Origin: a virus
Reading direction: 5' to 3' (one strand)
DNA length: 26,032 bases
Virus record (IMG/VR): IMGVR_UViG_3300042301_002920
Location: 1 to 26,032 of that record
Part shown: positions 4,635 through 25,026 of the stretch, piece by piece
How positions within the stretch are numbered: the stretch's first letter is position 1
Layout: each line of letters starts with the position of its first letter
Notes under the pieces: model-generated
What the model saw: the letters and a program-made list of their open reading frames with translations, nothing else
Databases searched by the model: none
What the model was told of the DNA's origin: nothing
Translations under genes and position numbers: made by a program

Positions 4635-5312
4635 TTACCAACCTTTCAATTGGTTTGAGTAGAAGGTATATTCAGGGGTGTCAATAACATAGTCACCGTC
4701 CTGTACAAAGTACCATGGACCATCTTCTCCTTTAAGGATATGGATGTCCTGTGCTGGCATGTAGCTCTGTGCGATCATATAAGCCTTCTTGCCTTGGGCG
4801 TTTACCGCCACGTCAATAACTATTACCACATGGCCGGGGAAGCCACCTTTGATGAGTACATCCCCGATCTGGATGTCTTTCATCTTCTTAGCCTTAACCT
4901 GCTTCTCTAAGCTGGCTGAGTTGCAATTGGCGAACACGGCATCAAGGTACTTGATCTTGTGCCACTCCTCGTAAGGAGGTTTAAACCTGAACTCCTTTCC
5001 AGCGTTGCTGTAGAAGACAATCTTGCCGTACTGACCAGACGCCATTAGGTACTCAGTCCTCAGGCGCATAACTGCATCAGCACATTGCTGCAGATCTTTA
5101 TGACCGACCGGTACATCCAGGACGGCATACTGTGCAGTCTGGTTTGCCTTGGGCCTACCGTTGTACAAGTACACAGTCTTGTCCTGCTTTAAAACTATAT
5201 TACGTAAGTACTTTCCGAATCCATCTGTCTGAACTCTCGTGTATCCAGCAGGGGTGGGTATGGACTCTGTGGTGTTGACACCAATTAATAGCGAGATGAA
5301 TAGTGTTATCAT
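4635..5312 (-). CDS. DUF4846-like secreted protein
   Basis: A 225-residue protein with an N-terminal hydrophobic segment (MITLFISLLIGVNTTES) that looks like a signal peptide. The rest matches my memory of the DUF4846 family of Bacteroidetes: GFGKYLRNIVLK, LYNGRPKANQ, AVLDVPVGHKDLQQCADAVM, FANCNSASL, IGDVLIKGGFPGHVVIV and AQSYMPAQDIHIL. The ordered CNSASL Cys and GGFPGHVVIV His would fit an NlpC/P60-like or related Cys-His hydrolase fold, but that is inference. A secreted protein encoded two genes from the endolysin could act in lysis or envelope modification. It is transcribed alone, with a terminator downstream and a 390-bp untranslated gap upstream. Confidence 0.72.
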   Translation of the reverse strand: MITLFISLLIGVNTTESIPTPAGYTRVQTDGFGKYLRNIVLKQDKTVYLYNGRPKANQTAQYAVLDVPVGHKDLQQCADAVMRLRTEYLMASGQYGKIVFYSNAGKEFRFKPPYEEWHKIKYLDAVFANCNSASLEKQVKAKKMKDIQIGDVLIKGGFPGHVVIVIDVAVNAQGKKAYMIAQSYMPAQDIHILKGEDGPWYFVQDGDYVIDTPEYTFYSNQLKGW

Positions 5313-8785: not shown

Positions 8786-8845
8786 TGATGGTCTGCTAGT
8801 ATGTCGCTAGCACTGATGAGTCCCAGGCAGGACGAAACCATAAAA
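8784..8845 (+). ncRNA. Hammerhead ribozyme, type III
   Basis: All core parts are present. Stem III is ATGGT (8788-8792) with ACCAT (8837-8841), plus TTT/AAA beyond a mismatch. The cleavage triplet GTC ends at 8793. Stem I is TGCTAG (8794-8799) with CTAGCA (8807-8812). The core CTGATGA is at 8813-8819. Stem II is GTCC (8820-8823) with GGAC (8830-8833), loop CAGGCA. The core GAAA is at 8834-8837. Cleavage is predicted between 8793 and 8794. The open end is stem III, hence type III. Loops I (TATGTCG) and II could make the usual tertiary contact. It lies 9 bases before the ATG of the first array gene, and stem III captures the ACCAT of the leader. Confidence 0.88.
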
Positions 8846-8854
8846 CAAAACCAC

Positions 8855-9040
8855 ATGGAAACCAAATTATCTATGGCTATTGCATCACACCTAAGCGATG
8901 CGCAACACGAAATACTTACCGGTGAAATTAAGCTCGCCACTAAGAGGTTAAACTTTGTAAAACTTATAACCTTCAAACATAGTGACCTTAACGAGTATGT
9001 CACCTTCGATTACCTAACACAATTATGGAACCAACTATAA
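8855..9040 (+). CDS. Small hypothetical protein, first gene of the array
   Basis: A 61-residue protein starting METKLSMAIASHLSDAQ. An in-frame ATG at 8801 lies inside the hammerhead stem I loop, so the ATG at 8855, preceded by ACCATAAAACAAAACCAC, is the better start. It is probably helical, with LATKRLNFVKLITF in the middle. No known motif. The leader up to this ATG includes the ribozyme, so its mRNA would carry a processed 5' end. Confidence 0.6.
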   Translation: METKLSMAIASHLSDAQHEILTGEIKLATKRLNFVKLITFKHSDLNEYVTFDYLTQLWNQL

Positions 9041-9051
9041 AAAAGAACCAC

Positions 9052-9225
9052 ATGAAAACTTTTACCTCAATCATCAAATTTTACTTAGCAGGTGCCTTGC
9101 TTAACCCATTCACCATTGCCGGTTTGATTTCCGGTTGCCACGAGTTTACATTCTTTGGCTTTGTGTTATCTGCATTGGCTTGTAGTATTCTCTTCCTAGG
9201 TGGAGGAGTTAAAGCGTTTAAATAA
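9052..9225 (+). CDS. Small membrane protein
   Basis: 57 residues, starting at the ATG after AAAAGAACCAC, which copies the leader ending of its neighbours. An upstream in-frame ATG at 9025 overlaps the previous gene. It has two hydrophobic segments, IIKFYLAGALLNPFTIAGLI and FTFFGFVLSALACSILFLGG, separated by SGCHE, so it is likely a two-helix inner-membrane hairpin. Function unknown. Confidence 0.6.
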   Translation: MKTFTSIIKFYLAGALLNPFTIAGLISGCHEFTFFGFVLSALACSILFLGGGVKAFK

Positions 9226-9226
9226 T

Positions 9227-9244
9227 CCCCCGAGCAGCCCACAA
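9227..9244 (+). promoter_or_regulatory. CCCCCGA motif copy upstream of hammerhead 2
   Basis: CCCCCGAGCAG follows the stop codon of the previous gene by one base and leads into the hammerhead at 9245. It is the same 5' edge that begins the three-way-junction elements downstream, but here GAGCAGC has no downstream partner. Confidence 0.4.
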
Positions 9245-9294
9245 GGTTAACTGATGAGGGTTAAATACCCGAAACGCCTACGGGCGTCTTAACC
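9245..9294 (+). ncRNA. Hammerhead ribozyme, type I
   Basis: Stem I is GGTTAA (9245-9250) with TTAACC (9289-9294). The core CTGATGA is at 9251-9257. Stem II is GGGT/ACCC (9258-9261 with 9267-9270), loop TAAAT. GAAA is at 9271-9274. Stem III is CGCC/GGCG (9275-9278 with 9283-9286), loop TACG. The T at 9287 pairs with A at 9274, and the cleavage triplet GTC ends at 9288. Cleavage between 9288 and 9289 would leave an mRNA starting UUAACCAUAAAAC, 22 bases before the ATG at 9311. Every consensus core base is present; only activity is untested. Confidence 0.92.
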
Positions 9295-9310
9295 ATAAAA
9301 CACCAACACA

Positions 9311-9484
9311 ATGAGTCCAGATTTTGCTTTTAAAATCGCTATTGAAAACGGGTTGCTAAGCGATGACCCGAACGCTGAAAACTATGCCGGTCTTTACATG
9401 TACATGGGCATCCAAAACCCAGGCACAGACAGAGAGCTAATACTATTCAAAAACATTAACACCCGTGATTACCTCAAATTTTAA
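9311..9484 (+). CDS. Small hypothetical protein behind hammerhead 2
   Basis: 57 residues: MSPDFAFKIAIENGLLSDDP, then NAENYAGLYMYMGIQNPGTD, then RELILFKNINTRDYLKF. The start has the array-style leader ACCATAAAACACCAACACA-ATG. The protein is acidic and soluble-looking. The helix-then-YMYMG pattern is reminiscent of small phage proteins that are mostly helical, but I recognise no family. Confidence 0.6.
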   Translation: MSPDFAFKIAIENGLLSDDPNAENYAGLYMYMGIQNPGTDRELILFKNINTRDYLKF

Positions 9485-9497
9485 AACACCACACGCC

Positions 9498-9734
9498 ATG
9501 AATGTAATTATCCTTTATCGTGATGAAATTGCCGAAACGCCAATTTTAGTAAAACACGACACCACTGCCGAAGCAGTTTTTGAATCACTTGCCACCGAGC
9601 TACTAGGCGAAGATGCCGAAGAGGTCGACTTTTTTTGTGACTCTGCCTTAAGCAAGGTAAACTCACTTCTTAGACACCAGGACCTTAGGATTGAATGGTT
9701 CTGCGATATTGATGTAAACACCTATAAAAACTAA
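9498..9734 (+). CDS. Small acidic hypothetical protein
   Basis: 78 residues from the ATG at 9498 (MNVIILYRDEIAETPILVKH). An in-frame ATG at 9465 overlaps the previous gene and lacks the ACACCACACGCC leader. Predicted strand-helix order: VIILYRD, ILVKHDTTAEAVFESLATELLG, DAEEVDFFCD, LRIEWFCDIDVNTY. A compact alpha/beta fold is likely; no function is recognised. Confidence 0.6.
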   Translation: MNVIILYRDEIAETPILVKHDTTAEAVFESLATELLGEDAEEVDFFCDSALSKVNSLLRHQDLRIEWFCDIDVNTYKN

Positions 9735-9738
9735 TCAC

Positions 9739-9924
9739 ATGACTAATGATTTATTTGAAACACTCGAAAACTTACCCTCTGAGGTACAAATCATCTTAAA
9801 GGAATTTAGCGAAATGGAAAACACATACGACAATTGTGTAGCCCTTGTTAACGAGCTAAATCTTGTTGGGTACGGCTGCGACTACGGACTCGATGGTATA
9901 CCCTACGATTTACAACCACTTTAA
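9739..9924 (+). CDS. Small acidic hypothetical protein
   Basis: 61 residues, strongly acidic (MTNDLFETLENLPSEVQIIL, then KEFSEMENTYDNC...), 4 bp after the previous stop with leader AATCAC-ATG. The end (YGCDYGLDGIPYDLQPL) matches the tail of short proteins that I have seen as stand-alone phage products with a CDYGLDG-type end. The function is not known. Its high acidity would fit a DNA mimic, but that is speculation. Confidence 0.6.
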   Translation: MTNDLFETLENLPSEVQIILKEFSEMENTYDNCVALVNELNLVGYGCDYGLDGIPYDLQPL

Positions 9925-9936
9925 AAAATTAACCAC

Positions 9937-10008
9937 ATGAAAAGCACAACCACCGCCATTATCATTGTTATTGTCTTCTTGCTTATTACTCTAGCAGATA
10001 ACATATAA
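9937..10008 (+). CDS. Tiny single-span membrane peptide
   Basis: 23 residues: three threonines after MKS, then AIIIVIVFLLITLA, a single transmembrane helix, and DNI. It has the leader AATTAACCAC-ATG like its neighbours, and the stop is followed at once by an intergenic RNA element. The shared leader is the main reason to accept such a short gene. Confidence 0.45.
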   Translation: MKSTTTAIIIVIVFLLITLADNI

Positions 10009-10011
10009 ATA

Positions 10012-10074
10012 CCCCCGAACTGGGATGGTCGCAAAGCGGTTCGATTCCGCTTCCAGTTCCAATGCAATAATGCA
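10012..10074 (+). ncRNA. Intergenic structured RNA element, copy 1
   Basis: CCCCC then outer stem GAACTGG (10017-10023) with CCAGTTC (10053-10059). The inner hairpin AGCGG-TTCGATT-CCGCT (10035-10051) is identical in form to a tRNA T-arm (5 bp, loop TTCGATT). A trailing 4-bp hairpin TGCA-ATAA-TGCA follows (10063-10074), then GAACCATAAAAC and the next ATG at 10096. The outer stem is 7 bp, as in a tRNA acceptor, but there is no D or anticodon arm. Confidence 0.7.
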
Positions 10075-10095
10075 GAACCATAAAACAAACCAACC

Positions 10096-10299
10096 ATGAA
10101 AAAACTGTTAATTGTATGTATCGCATTTGCGGTATCATGCGCAAGTTCAAAACAACCACCAATACCTACCGAGCAATTGGATTTCCCCCCAGAGTTTGAC
10201 AAGTATACCATTAGCCATGACAGGGCCAACCCTACCTTATTAATGGCAGTTTACGACACGACAACACAGAAGTATATTTTTGAATTTATCGATAACTAA
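10096..10299 (+). CDS. Small lipoprotein
   Basis: 67 residues. MKKLLIVCIAFAVSCASSKQ is a lipoprotein signal with the lipobox VSC, so it is probably lipidated at Cys15. The mature part is about 50 residues, polar (PPEFDKYTISHDRANPTLL). It begins after the leader ACCATAAAACAAACCAACC. An envelope-located accessory protein, for example in superinfection exclusion, is a guess from location and signal only. Confidence 0.65.
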   Translation: MKKLLIVCIAFAVSCASSKQPPIPTEQLDFPPEFDKYTISHDRANPTLLMAVYDTTTQKYIFEFIDN

Positions 10300-10318
10300 A
10301 CCATAAAACAAACCAACC

Positions 10319-10504
10319 ATGAATTTAATCTACTCAACTACAATTGAAGACACCTATAGCGTGTATATTGAATGTGTTTACAAAGATGGGCAGCCTACTA
10401 CCATTTACTATGCAGAATGCGATGGTTGGTCTAGCGGAATGTATGCAATAAAGCCCGCAAATACATACTGCGCTGCCTTAAGGATTTTAGCTAGCTTAAA
10501 ATAA
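10319..10504 (+). CDS. Small hypothetical protein
   Basis: 61 residues. Alternating strands (YSVYIECVYKDGQPTTIYYAE) and then WSSGMYAIKPANTYCAALRIL, which looks like a two- or three-strand sheet with a C-terminal helix. The leader ACCATAAAACAAACCAACC is a perfect copy of the one at the preceding gene, although no RNA element sits in this 19-bp gap. Function unknown. Confidence 0.6.
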   Translation: MNLIYSTTIEDTYSVYIECVYKDGQPTTIYYAECDGWSSGMYAIKPANTYCAALRILASLK

Positions 10505-10505
10505 A

Positions 10506-10572
10506 CCCCCGAGCTGCCGACCTAAGCGGTCACACCGGAGCGATACCGGAGCAGCTCCAATGCGATAACGCA
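10506..10572 (+). ncRNA. Intergenic structured RNA element, copy 2
   Basis: CCCCC, outer stem GAGCTGC (10511-10517) with GCAGCTC (10551-10557), hairpin GACC/GGTC (10519-10522 with 10528-10531), hairpin CCGG-AGCGATA-CCGG (10535-10549), then trailing hairpin TGCG-ATAA-CGCA (10561-10572) and GAACCATAAAAC. Compared with copy 1, two outer-stem pairs are swapped in a compensated way and the trailing hairpin's inner pair changes from A-T to G-C. Confidence 0.72.
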
Positions 10573-10593
10573 GAACCATAAAACCAATTAATC

Positions 10594-10938
10594 ATGTCAA
10601 CCACAATCAACACCACACTTCAAATGCACGTCTTCACTTTAGACAACGCCTTAATCTACCTGAAAGAAAATTTACAAACAGACGCAGACTTCAGCGGTGA
10701 TAATGGCCCTGACTTCCTAGATGATGCAGCCCAAGGGTACGATTCAAATCTTGAATACTACCTCGATAAGTTCTGGAACAAGCACAAGCCAAAGAACGAA
10801 GAGACCCTAAATAACTTCTTTTTAAAGTTCTTCAAGTTCATGCAGAATAGGGACCAGTACTACTCGAATATTGAATTCGAACTTAAGTTTATTGGCGACC
10901 AAATAGTTTTAGCAGTGATGATGGAATGTGAGTGCTAA
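10594..10938 (+). CDS. Acidic hypothetical protein
   Basis: 114 residues, helical and acidic: FTLDNALIYLKENLQTDADF, then DDAAQGYDSNLEYYLDKFWN, and LNNFFLKFFKFMQNRDQYY. No enzyme motif seen. The leader is ACCATAAAACCAATTAATC-ATG after RNA element copy 2. One of the larger genes of the array, it may have a folded all-helical domain. Confidence 0.6.
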   Translation: MSTTINTTLQMHVFTLDNALIYLKENLQTDADFSGDNGPDFLDDAAQGYDSNLEYYLDKFWNKHKPKNEETLNNFFLKFFKFMQNRDQYYSNIEFELKFIGDQIVLAVMMECEC

Positions 10939-10944
10939 ACATTA

Positions 10945-11005
10945 CCCCCGACCTATCGCCCAGGGCGTGCGCTTCGATGCTAAATAGGTCCAATGCCATA
11001 TGGCA
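10945..11005 (+). ncRNA. Intergenic structured RNA element, copy 3
   Basis: CCCCC, outer stem GACCTAT (10950-10956) with ATAGGTC (10984-10990), hairpin CGCC-CAG-GGCG (10957-10967), a weak hairpin GCG/TGC with loop CTTCGA (10969-10980), and trailing hairpin TGCC-ATAT-GGCA (10994-11005), then GAACCATAAAAC. The outer stem differs at several pairs from copies 1 and 2 yet stays fully paired. Confidence 0.7.
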
Positions 11006-11026
11006 GAACCATAAAACACCAACCCT

Positions 11027-11590
11027 ATGAACCAACCAACAATTAAGTGCTCACATTGTGAGCGTGAACTGGATGAAAACGATTTCTGCACTTTTGATAA
11101 GGACGGAAATGATGTCTGTGAATCATGCGAAAGTGACGCATGGAATTACGCCAACTCAGTAATAACAATCCATGGCGAAGACAAAAAAAGCTACCTCTGG
11201 TGCGAGCCCTTCGGATTTAGAGAGCGTGAATACTTCGAAGAGGAGAGCCCCAACGGAGTCGATGGATTTAAGTATGTGCGCACCGATGCATGGCGTGGAT
11301 ATTGGGACGTTGAAATTGCCCACGGGTACACGACCCTTGCTTCTGGATGGGCCACCGGCAGTTACTCCGATGTACCATGGAAGCACGCCTTTAATGACCT
11401 TGTAGATAGGATTCAGGATGGCGAGCTGCAACCACCAGTTGAATTAATCTTTGCCTTCGGCCTTACCTCCAACGTCTTCAGCACATCCACTGATGTAATA
11501 GTGCGGGAATGCGATTTAAAGGCCCTTACAGAGTGGCTAAGCCTTGAGGCTGGTATAACTATCGAAGAACTAGAAAACGCCCTAAAATAA
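11027..11590 (+). CDS. Zinc-ribbon-tipped hypothetical protein
   Basis: 187 residues. Residues 8-35 hold CSHCERELDENDF then VCESCESDAW, two CxxC pairs making a small zinc ribbon. The rest is tryptophan- and aromatic-rich (YLWCEPFGFREREYF, VRTDAWRGYWDVEIAHGY, ASGWATGSYSDVPWKHAF) and ends with a helix (LKALTEWLSLEAGITIEELENAL). It follows element copy 3 with the leader ACCATAAAACACCAACCCT. The largest array gene; possibly nucleic-acid binding through the ribbon, no family named. Confidence 0.65.
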   Translation: MNQPTIKCSHCERELDENDFCTFDKDGNDVCESCESDAWNYANSVITIHGEDKKSYLWCEPFGFREREYFEEESPNGVDGFKYVRTDAWRGYWDVEIAHGYTTLASGWATGSYSDVPWKHAFNDLVDRIQDGELQPPVELIFAFGLTSNVFSTSTDVIVRECDLKALTEWLSLEAGITIEELENALK

Positions 11591-11601
11591 CCCTTAAAAT
11601 A

Positions 11602-11645
11602 CCCCGACCTGGCGGCACGGCCGTGGCCTTCGATGGCAACCAGGT
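11602..11645 (+). ncRNA. Intergenic structured RNA element, copy 4
   Basis: CCCCG, outer stem ACCTGG (11607-11612) with CCAGGT (11640-11645), hairpin CGGC-ACG-GCCG (11613-11623), hairpin GCC-TTCGAT-GGC (11626-11637). It lacks the trailing hairpin of copies 1-3; TACTAATCAA and then ACCATAAAACCT precede the ATG at 11667. The TTCGATG of the last loop is the same as in copy 3. Confidence 0.7.
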
Positions 11646-11666
11646 ACTAATCAAACCATAAAACCT

Positions 11667-11942
11667 ATGAAACCAATTATTGTATCTACACCGAACGCAT
11701 ACGGCTTCGGTCACGACTGGACCCTAGTAGTAAAGGGCCGCAGTTTTTACCTGGGCCAGGATGCAAAATTTTGCCAGCGTGTACTAGGCATGAGAGGTTC
11801 AGAAGTAGCCGAGGCCATCGGTTCCAATGACCTATCAAAAGACACCACACGCAGACGCCTTGCGGCCTTCATCATCCAGAGCCTGGGCCTGGACCAGGAG
11901 CAAATCGAAACCCTGGAACCCTGGGAGCTATGCTGCCAATAA
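11667..11942 (+). CDS. Hypothetical protein
   Basis: 91 residues. MKPIIVSTPNAYGFGHDWTL leads into VVKGRSFYLGQDAKFCQRVLGM, then a helical C-terminal half (RGSEVAEAIGSNDLSKDTTR, RLAAFIIQSLGLDQEQIETL). The pattern FYLGQDAKFCQRVLG followed by paired helices is one I have seen in uncharacterised Bacteroidetes proteins, but I cannot assign a role. Leader AAACCATAAAACCT-ATG. Confidence 0.62.
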   Translation: MKPIIVSTPNAYGFGHDWTLVVKGRSFYLGQDAKFCQRVLGMRGSEVAEAIGSNDLSKDTTRRRLAAFIIQSLGLDQEQIETLEPWELCCQ

Positions 11943-11946
11943 AATA

Positions 11947-11994
11947 CCGAGCTAGTAGGAACGACCGAAACCGGAGCGATGCCGGTACTAGCTC
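11947..11994 (+). ncRNA. Intergenic structured RNA element, copy 5
   Basis: CC, outer stem GAGCTAGTA (11949-11957) with TACTAGCTC (11986-11994), at 9 bp the longest of the family. A short GG-AACGA-CC (11958-11966) and hairpin CCGG-AGCGATG-CCGG (11971-11985) lie inside. The last hairpin is nearly the same as in copy 2. The C-run before the stem is reduced (TACCGA), and CTCATCAAAACACC follows. Confidence 0.7.
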
Positions 11995-12014
11995 CTCATC
12001 AAAACACCAAACAA

Positions 12015-12173
12015 ATGCAACCGCAAGACCCAAACAAAACCCACTTTTATGTAAGCCTGGTGAAGTCTTCACTCCGCTTCATAGCTTGTTACTTTCTTTA
12101 TTGTGAACGCTTCGGACCCGCTGCGCTTTTCCTTGCAGCTGCAGAGCTCCTAGGCATTATCGAAGAAATTTAA
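12015..12173 (+). CDS. Small hypothetical protein
   Basis: 52 residues from the ATG at 12015 (MQPQDPNKTHFYVSLVKSSL). A longer frame from 11979 would start inside RNA element copy 5 and is rejected. The centre (RFIACYFLYCERFGPAALFL, then AAAELLGIIEEI) is hydrophobic and looks like one membrane-associated helical hairpin. It overlaps no neighbour and has the A-rich leader AAAACACCAAACAA. Confidence 0.55.
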   Translation: MQPQDPNKTHFYVSLVKSSLRFIACYFLYCERFGPAALFLAAAELLGIIEEI

Positions 12174-12184
12174 AACCAACCCAT

Positions 12185-12397
12185 ATGACACCACAAACCA
12201 CCCTTGAAGCGTGCGAAATTATCGAAGGCGGATGCGGATACGCTCCGACAGACACCGACATTTTGCAGGCATGGTCCCTACTAATTAGCACGGGCCAAGT
12301 ATGGAAGCTACAACCATTCTATGTACGCAATGCATCCATGCTCATTGACACGGGCGTTATTGACTTGAAGGGCACGATTAATTATGATATTGAATAA
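12185..12397 (+). CDS. DUF7417-like small phage protein
   Basis: 70 residues. The segment TDTDILQAWSLLISTGQVWK, then LQPFYVRNASMLIDTGVI, matches the layout I know from a widespread small phage and plasmid protein family (xxQxLIDTGLxWxLQGxYGRxAxxLIxxGxI), for which no function is established. The N-terminus MTPQTTLEACEIIEGGCGYA fits the family too. It begins 11 bp after the previous gene with leader AAAACCAACCCAT. Confidence 0.68.
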   Translation: MTPQTTLEACEIIEGGCGYAPTDTDILQAWSLLISTGQVWKLQPFYVRNASMLIDTGVIDLKGTINYDIE

Positions 12398-12403
12398 CAC
12401 CCA

Positions 12404-24919: not shown

Positions 24920-25014
24920 AGTCAGGTAGCTCAAATTTTGGGAGCACATGCATCATTGCGTGTTCAATACAAGTCTGCTTTAGGCTTGTTCAGGTTCGAA
25001 TCCTGTCCTGACTA
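24920..25014 (+). tRNA. tRNA-like gene 2 (long variable arm, isotype unresolved)
   Basis: Acceptor AGTCAGG (24920-24926) with CCTGACT (25007-25013), A73 at 25014: the same 14 bases as gene 1. T8, A9, D-stem GCTC/GAGC with loop AAATTTTGG. Anticodon stem CATGC/GCGTG would leave a 6-base loop ATCATT; a 4-bp version gives an 8-base loop with CAT in place. Variable arm ACAAG/CTTGT is 5 bp, class II type. T-arm CAGG-TTCGAAT-CCTG. The anticodon is not clear. It looks like a class II tRNA with a damaged or unusual anticodon loop. Confidence 0.6.
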
Positions 25015-25026
25015 CAAACTAAATCT

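Follow-up and report, generated by a model that had tools for sequence, protein, structure and literature searches.

A type I hammerhead ribozyme and mini tRNA-like elements as candidate mRNA processing sites between the small genes of a phage operon

Hammerhead ribozymes of phages and prophages comprise types I–III, and several of them are located around single phage genes, as described in the available part of PMC3088659. Therein, Perreault et al. proposed in 2011 that hammerhead cutting generates gene-length mRNAs from long phage transcripts. Tandem bacterial and prophage hammerheads were found to cut in vitro, those of Agrobacterium also in E. coli, and the HHphage ribozyme is positioned 13 nt before a start codon (PMC3088659, same part). 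According to the accessible text of a 2017 review (PMC6155905), the role of prokaryotic hammerheads is an open question. The ribozyme described in this article has the same core and fold as these phage hammerheads.

The window, meaning the whole analyzed stretch of 26,032 nucleotides of viral DNA (record IMGVR_UViG_3300042301_002920), contains a cluster of small genes on the + strand that extends from 8855 to about 13,170. An integrase gene is found at 13901–15193 (Pfam PF00589), and recombination and primase/helicase genes are located further on. The type I hammerhead ribozyme lies on the + strand of this cluster at 9245–9294; its anatomy is confirmed by direct reading, and it is predicted to be a self-cleaver. 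Stem I consists of GGTTAA (9245–9250) and TTAACC (9289–9294) and is a plain 6-bp helix. It is followed by the core CTGATGA (9251–9257), by stem II made of GGGT (9258–9261) and ACCC (9267–9270) with the loop TAAAT, by the GAAA element (9271–9274), and by stem III made of ACGCC (9274–9278) and GGCGT (9283–9287) with a UACG tetraloop. The NUH cleavage triplet GUC (9286–9288), with C9288 as H17, is placed between stems III and I, and the predicted cut at 9288/9289 separates GUC from UUAACC. The sequence and fold features that define a type I hammerhead are found herein: the CUGANGA...GAAA core, loop-closed stems II and III, an open stem I, an NUH triplet, and stems that are kept by compensatory change among the relatives. 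The predicted 3′ cleavage product starts with a leader of 22 nt (9289–9310, + strand), which carries AACCATAAAAC at 9291–9301, and continues with a 57-aa ORF (9311–9484, + strand) that is opened by ATG 9311 and has no match in Pfam or PHROG. The three stems, the core, the predicted cut, and the 22-base leader had all been named in the preliminary description of this stretch and are borne out by direct reading. We interpret the element as a self-cleaving hammerhead that would process an early phage transcript in cis between its cistrons, with a probability of roughly three in four.

A strict descriptor was defined by CTGANGA, a stem II of at least 3 bp, GAAA, a stem III of at least 4 bp including A15.1–U16.1, an NUH triplet, and a stem I of at least 4 bp, in type I or type III topology. 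It matches the 26,032-base window exactly twice, in the type I element at 9245–9294 and in a type III hammerhead with its predicted cut at 8793/8794, and yields no match in 300 dinucleotide shuffles of the window (both strands). The minimum-free-energy fold of 9240–9300 is exactly the hammerhead secondary structure, with −17.8 kcal/mol and a z score of −3.17 (1 of 200 shuffles folds equally well); with longer flanks, z amounts to only −1.48. The CTGANGA..GAAA pattern alone is found four times in the window against 2.0 expected matches, which is not significant. Hence, the evidence for the type I hammerhead is the full fold together with the relatives.

The element at 9245–9294 is absent from the Rfam scan both at gathering (0 matches) and at E ≤ 5, and an RF00163 search of the record at E ≤ 1 matches the type III site and leaves the type I element unmatched. 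It stays below the gathering score of RF00163 (34 bits) and is hence not assigned to this model, although it has the class-defining hammerhead features; it likewise stays below that of RF03152 RAGATH-1 (56.3 bits). The type I hammerheads of the related locus L148 score between 25.9 and 28.6 bits with RF03152 (four) and 19.9 bits with RF00163 (one), all under the cut-offs. Because the Rfam models miss the element, the type I assignment is built on the defining core, the fold, and the relatives.

The primase/helicase protein was used as a query to collect 24 related viral loci. Type I hammerheads with the same GGTTAA/TTAACC stem I are found by the descriptor in G007, G016 (near-identical to G007), G009, and G011, where stems II and III differ from those of the window, yet are complementary. 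A seed pattern that fixes only TTAA, CTGATGA, GAAA, and TCTTAA occurs in at least 119 stretches of viral contigs. In the loci examined, both stem II and stem III form in 87 of 132 distinct pattern matches, as opposed to 0.45% of shuffled inserts. These 87 matches display several Watson–Crick types at every stem pair except for the invariant G10.1–C11.1 and A15.1–U16.1. Among the first 12 of the 45 remaining matches, several combine one clear stem with a second that is bulged or offset, and others are chance-like. At least 128 distinct type I hammerheads, from related and unrelated viral loci, pass the descriptor. Herein, the cleavage triplet is GUC in 107 of 128, loop II is often UNANU, and two or more copies are present in 28 of 77 loci (up to six per locus, with some loci overlapping in origin). 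The conservation of stem I is partly a seed bias, as TTAA is fixed in the seed and only 33 of the 128 members lie outside of it, 24 of these still with TTAA. The exact pattern of the window's own hammerhead and leader has no match in viral contigs, and nucleotide comparison of the operon with the phage database gives no match either.

The distance to the following gene was determined by searching for an ATG that opens at least 25 codons and lies at most 80 nt from the cut. Such an ORF follows 125 of the 128 type I hammerheads, with a median distance of 22 nt—exactly the leader length in the window—and a 10th–90th percentile range of 19–29 nt. In the controls, it is found at 46% of random same-strand positions and at 36 of 128 antisense positions. 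The three misses are two contig ends and the G011 copy, which precedes an apparently truncated gene without a reachable ATG. In 70 of 126 relatives, the stop codon of the upstream gene falls within stem I or the core, so that the ribozyme occupies the space between two genes; the window differs from most relatives in that this stop codon is located ~20 nt before stem I. This placement of the stop codon would couple translation termination with ribozyme folding, as expected if the hammerhead cuts to set the fate of the upstream transcript (3′-end formation, down-regulation, or shut-off of read-through) and not to shape the leader. However, the tightly held quantity is the distance to the downstream ATG (19–29 nt), and the mini tRNA-like elements described below are similar in this respect, so that a role in upstream fate appears unlikely.

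The leader of L149 (IMGVR_UViG_3300049491_000350) is of a different type. Its six type I hammerheads have a longer distance to the ATG, of about 44 nt, and their leaders share a repeated stretch resembling AAAAGT.AGG.GCA.ACTATAACAGGC. A type I descriptor match is also found in the Pelagibacter phage Jormungand (L390, MT375528), whose host is a very different one; the core of this match at locus position 5003 lies inside an annotated hypothetical gene, near ArdA-like genes.

No tertiary-contact partner between the stem I and stem II regions is identified and stem I is a plain helix, hence cleavage at cellular Mg2+ could be slow. Together with the Rfam models missing the element and the truncated gene behind the G011 copy, the lack of a visible contact would fit a catalytically weak relic, or a neutral hitchhiker spread with gene cassettes, for which cleavage is irrelevant. 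We consider this very unlikely, since stems II and III carry many compensatory changes, core and triplet are intact, and multiple copies occur at fixed spacing.

The preliminary description had further pointed out that stem I contains TTAACC, the start of the leader, and had proposed that the leader is sequestered before cleavage and free thereafter. The pairing is correct, and the six paired leader bases speak for a switch regulating translation. A special sequester-and-release function is, however, unsupported, as only six of 22 leader bases are paired and this pairing is largely a trivial consequence of topology: the 3′ strand of any type I stem I begins the 3′ product. The remaining, AU-rich leader and ATG 9311 are already unpaired in the predicted pre-cleavage fold, and no ligand or trigger domain is seen. 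Such a switch is therefore highly improbable.

The type III hammerhead (8788–8841, + strand; RF00008 match 8786–8843) stands at the opening of the small-gene operon, with its predicted cut at 8793/8794 and 13 nt before ATG 8855. In contrast to type I, its 3′ product would retain the ribozyme as a 5′ structure. With RF00008, it reaches 42 bits and stays under the gathering score (48.5). The same model finds a type III element in 5 of 20 related records at 34–44 bits, none above the cut-off, and a sixth match of 15.7 bits in G009 overlaps that record's type I hammerhead. Two topologically different hammerheads 500 bp apart in one operon had been called unusual, which does not hold. A type III hammerhead with a type I hammerhead downstream of it, in the same orientation, is also present in G007/G016, G011, L117, L158, and L206; L153 contains both types, and one of its type I copies is located upstream. 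In the cultured Flavobacterium phage elemoC_14-1A (MT497067), a type III hammerhead precedes the first gene of a small-gene operon at a distance of 14 nt. The same phage carries a type I hammerhead, read by eye and with a single mismatch in stem III, at 28 nt from the following ATG. End mapping in a laboratory infection of Flavobacterium sp. BAL314 is thus possible, with new 5′ ends predicted on the minus strand of MT497067 at 16957 (type I) and 19091 (type III).

By reading, all seven intergenic gaps of at least 60 nt within 8855–12,970 hold a structured element, namely the type I hammerhead and the mini tRNA-like elements e3–e8. The latter start with CCCCC and a 7-bp acceptor-like stem (often GAACTGC/GCAGTTC), followed by a D-loop-like stretch such as AATGGTTGTA, a 5–6-bp stem capped by a T-loop of seven bases (TTCGATT or AGCGATA), the complementary strand of the 7-bp stem, and a C. 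Compared with a tRNA, they possess the acceptor stem and the T-arm with its T-loop and are devoid of the anticodon arm and CCA. A model built from 24 mini-elements, termed R1, scores e3 (10012–10059) with 67.2 bits, e4 (10506–10557) with 46.6 bits, e7 (11944–11994) with 46.0 bits, and e8 (12404–12451) with 38.3 bits. The elements e5 (10945–10990; a weak 23.4 bits) and e6 (11601–11646; window copy missed by R1 at E ≤ 1) were identified by eye, and a copy in L095 that is similar to e6 reaches 31.0 bits. All six are located on the + strand. In e3, the plan is realized as CCCCC, the 7-bp stem, the D-like GATGGTCGCAA, and a T-arm with TTCGATT.

The leader motif AACCATAAAAC is found at 8836–8846 and in further exact copies at 9291, 10076, 10299, 10574, 11007, and 11654, all on the + strand and just before an ATG. 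With at most one mismatch, it has 10 matches in the window (seven of them exact) against 0.87 expected. Small hairpins of the form UGCN-AUAA or AUAU-NGCA, with compensatory changes, stand between three mini-elements and the AACCATAAAAC leader (10060–10075, 10558–10573, and 10991–11006). At 24920–25015, ARAGORN predicts a tRNA-like gene whose anticodon has the odd length of four bases and whose variable arm is long. This gene is separated by 11 nt from ATG 25027 of the same strand and may be a further punctuation module. Together with a tRNA-Trp in G007, whose end is 12 nt upstream of an ATG, it shows that complete or near-complete tRNAs can also directly precede genes.

Upstream of the type I hammerhead, the non-coding sequence CCCCCGAGCAG (9227–9237, + strand) resembles the 5′ end of a mini-element, which is suggestive of one that was lost. 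Motifs like this occur at most 45 nt upstream of 3 of 128 hammerheads and are clearly non-coding in two. L268 has a remnant similar to CCCCCGAGCAG before its hammerhead, and the third case lies inside coding sequence.

At E ≤ 0.01, R1 matches 12 of 25 virus records, 11 of these with copies in the small-gene region; G009 contains one extra weak match outside this region, and the only match in G008 is borderline (E 0.00996). Across an enlarged set of 23 loci, R1 has 95 matches. In their alignment, which is fitted to R1, paired cells amount to 95.1% (69.9% shuffled), covariation to 0.543 (0.101 shuffled), and both-side changes are seen in 11 of 13 pairs. The unfitted alignment of 24 sequences agrees, with 93.2% versus 69.5% paired and a covariation of 0.575 versus 0.142. 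An ATG ORF follows 91 of 93 distinct mini-elements at a median of 19 nt from the stem end (approximate for a few partial matches), and the stem is followed by C in 88 of 93. The copies found in a locus are all on one strand in 23 of 23 loci. The outer stem is GAACTGC, GAACTGG, or GAACTGA in 73 of 95 mini-elements, and the T-loop is TTCGANT in 36 of 48 TGGT mini-elements versus 9 of 46 others, with D-classes defined after seeing the data.

ARAGORN does not detect the mini-elements of the window as tRNAs, and Rfam scans return no family for them, only the T-arm below significance (E 0.91 and 0.47). The first mini-element pattern gives 53 stretches, none of which shows the element apart from the contig of L044, a near-identical relative that was excluded from the first pattern scan and also appears as L056, L057, and L059. 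The 80 loci listed by a genome pattern scan are mostly chance; R1 gives seven weak matches on 55 of these 80, the best with 27.8 bits, and none at E ≤ 0.01 on nine Bacteroidota loci from the scan. As the best control reaches 27.8 bits in pattern-preselected loci, R1 scores below ~30 bits are unsafe alone, which concerns 12 of the 95 matches including e5. In host genomes (one phylum sample, without positive control), 0 of 395 match either pattern and 0 of 6 match R1.

Known ribozyme classes were compared with the mini-elements. An HDV-like ribozyme fits e3 by the 7-bp P1 and a possible P2; e4–e8 have no matching P2 partner, and e6–e8 are devoid of the P4 and J4/2 region (by eye), so that this class was rejected. 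Twister, pistol, and hatchet were rejected for want of an Rfam match. In the near-identical phage of L057, the mini-element after the same gene (258–303, compared with 10017–10059 of the window) keeps the 7-bp stem and the next small hairpin, and its interior and the downstream gene differ. Terminator-like hairpins followed by T-runs occur in L093 (4375–4430) and L101 (3533–3590) and begin with CCCCCGAAC like the 5′ end of a mini-element; a shared origin with the mini-elements is possible.

The proteins encoded just downstream of hammerheads and mini-elements were clustered, and seven gene pairs were aligned whose two members, from different phages, are preceded by a hammerhead and by a mini-element, respectively. 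Homologous genes are preceded by either module: 45 of 58 residues are identical between G007 and L258, and three further exchanged pairs have 150/246, 47/78, and 153/280 identical residues. The remaining pairs are one weak case (25/47) and two with negative global scores. Three of 12 nominally mixed gene clusters (L109, L122, and L185) were dropped, as the same core had been read as both types. Since hammerheads and mini-elements replace each other before homologous genes, both probably mark mRNA processing sites. An alternative would be that the elements are recombination boundaries at the level of DNA, like the cassette borders of integrons, with outer stems that serve gene exchange and incidental RNA folding. 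The unusually conserved outer stems (73/95), the different genes that flank shared elements in the window and L057, and the integrase gene at 13901–15193 agree with this. However, all copies within a locus share the strand and have a constant spacing to the downstream ATG, the T-loop and hammerhead-core motifs make sense in RNA, and no sequence is common to hammerheads and mini-elements on which one recombinase could act. Recombination boundaries are accordingly a highly unlikely explanation.

The preferred reading, RNA processing between cistrons, takes up the observed structure and its compensatory conservation, the position relative to start codons, the recurrence, and the module exchange. 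The folded RNA would cut at 9288/9289 and thereby part the upstream cistron, left with the ribozyme and a 2′,3′-cyclic phosphate end, from a downstream mRNA with a 5′-OH, an unstructured leader of 22 nt, and ATG 9311. If this takes place in the cell, the resulting single-gene mRNAs may benefit in translation or stability. At the other gene boundaries of the operon, the same job would be done by the type III hammerhead at the operon start and by the mini tRNA-like elements. RNase P and RNase Z recognize the shape of tRNA precursors. By analogy, the mini-elements are most likely substrates of host RNase P on the 5′ side (between CCCCC and G) and of RNase Z on the 3′ side, after the base that follows the stem. 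With either module, the mRNA of the downstream gene would have its 5′ end about 20 nt upstream of the ATG and would carry a leader that is AU-rich and unstructured; in the window phage, this leader is often AACCATAAAAC. In its widest form, for which and against which we see equal odds, the proposal extends to a large phage group whose hosts are probably Bacteroidota. In these phages, interchangeable RNA modules located ~20 nt upstream of start codons would divide the early operons into mRNAs for single genes. The modules would comprise self-cleaving hammerheads of types I and III and a new family of anticodon-less mini-tRNAs, which either recruit host RNase P/Z, as a phage version of tRNA punctuation, or are themselves a novel self-cleaving ribozyme.

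The rule of ~22 nt between cut and start codon, with more than 100 cases, makes the purpose of phage hammerheads testable, as exact 5′-OH ends are predicted. The exchangeable mini-elements point to a wider strategy in which phage operons are cut into single-gene messages. As clearly delimited candidates, they may constitute a novel element that either depends on RNase P/Z or cleaves itself; protein-free cutting would make them a new ribozyme. Searches in the vicinity of hammerhead- and twister-associated genes led to the discovery of pistol, twister sister, and hatchet, as stated in the available part of PMC4604425, and the mini-elements occur in the same hammerhead-gene setting.

Compared with the hammerheads in the available part of PMC3088659, the window family is distinguished by the recurrent TTAA stem I, the near-constant 22-nt spacing, and the mixing with mini-elements in the same operon; nearly constant spacing to the ATG and mixing with tRNA-like mini-elements are absent from that part. 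In the open-licence literature, nothing was found on leaders of constant length or on punctuation of phage transcripts by tRNA-like elements. Hence, the hammerhead itself is of a known kind, and the ~22-nt spacing rule and the mixing with mini tRNA-like elements look new. RAGATH-1 (RF03152), the best Rfam match of the type I relatives in L148, differs by an extra upstream hairpin and another stem I. The tRNA-like domain of tmRNA consists of an acceptor stem, a D-loop without a regular stem, and a T-arm, with no anticodon arm. The mini-elements share this anatomy and differ by having neither CCA nor a tag-encoding part. In mitochondrial tRNA punctuation, intergenic tRNAs are excised by tRNA-processing enzymes, which frees the mRNAs. 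Although devoid of an anticodon arm and an encoded CCA, the phage mini-elements are likewise RNA modules placed between genes.
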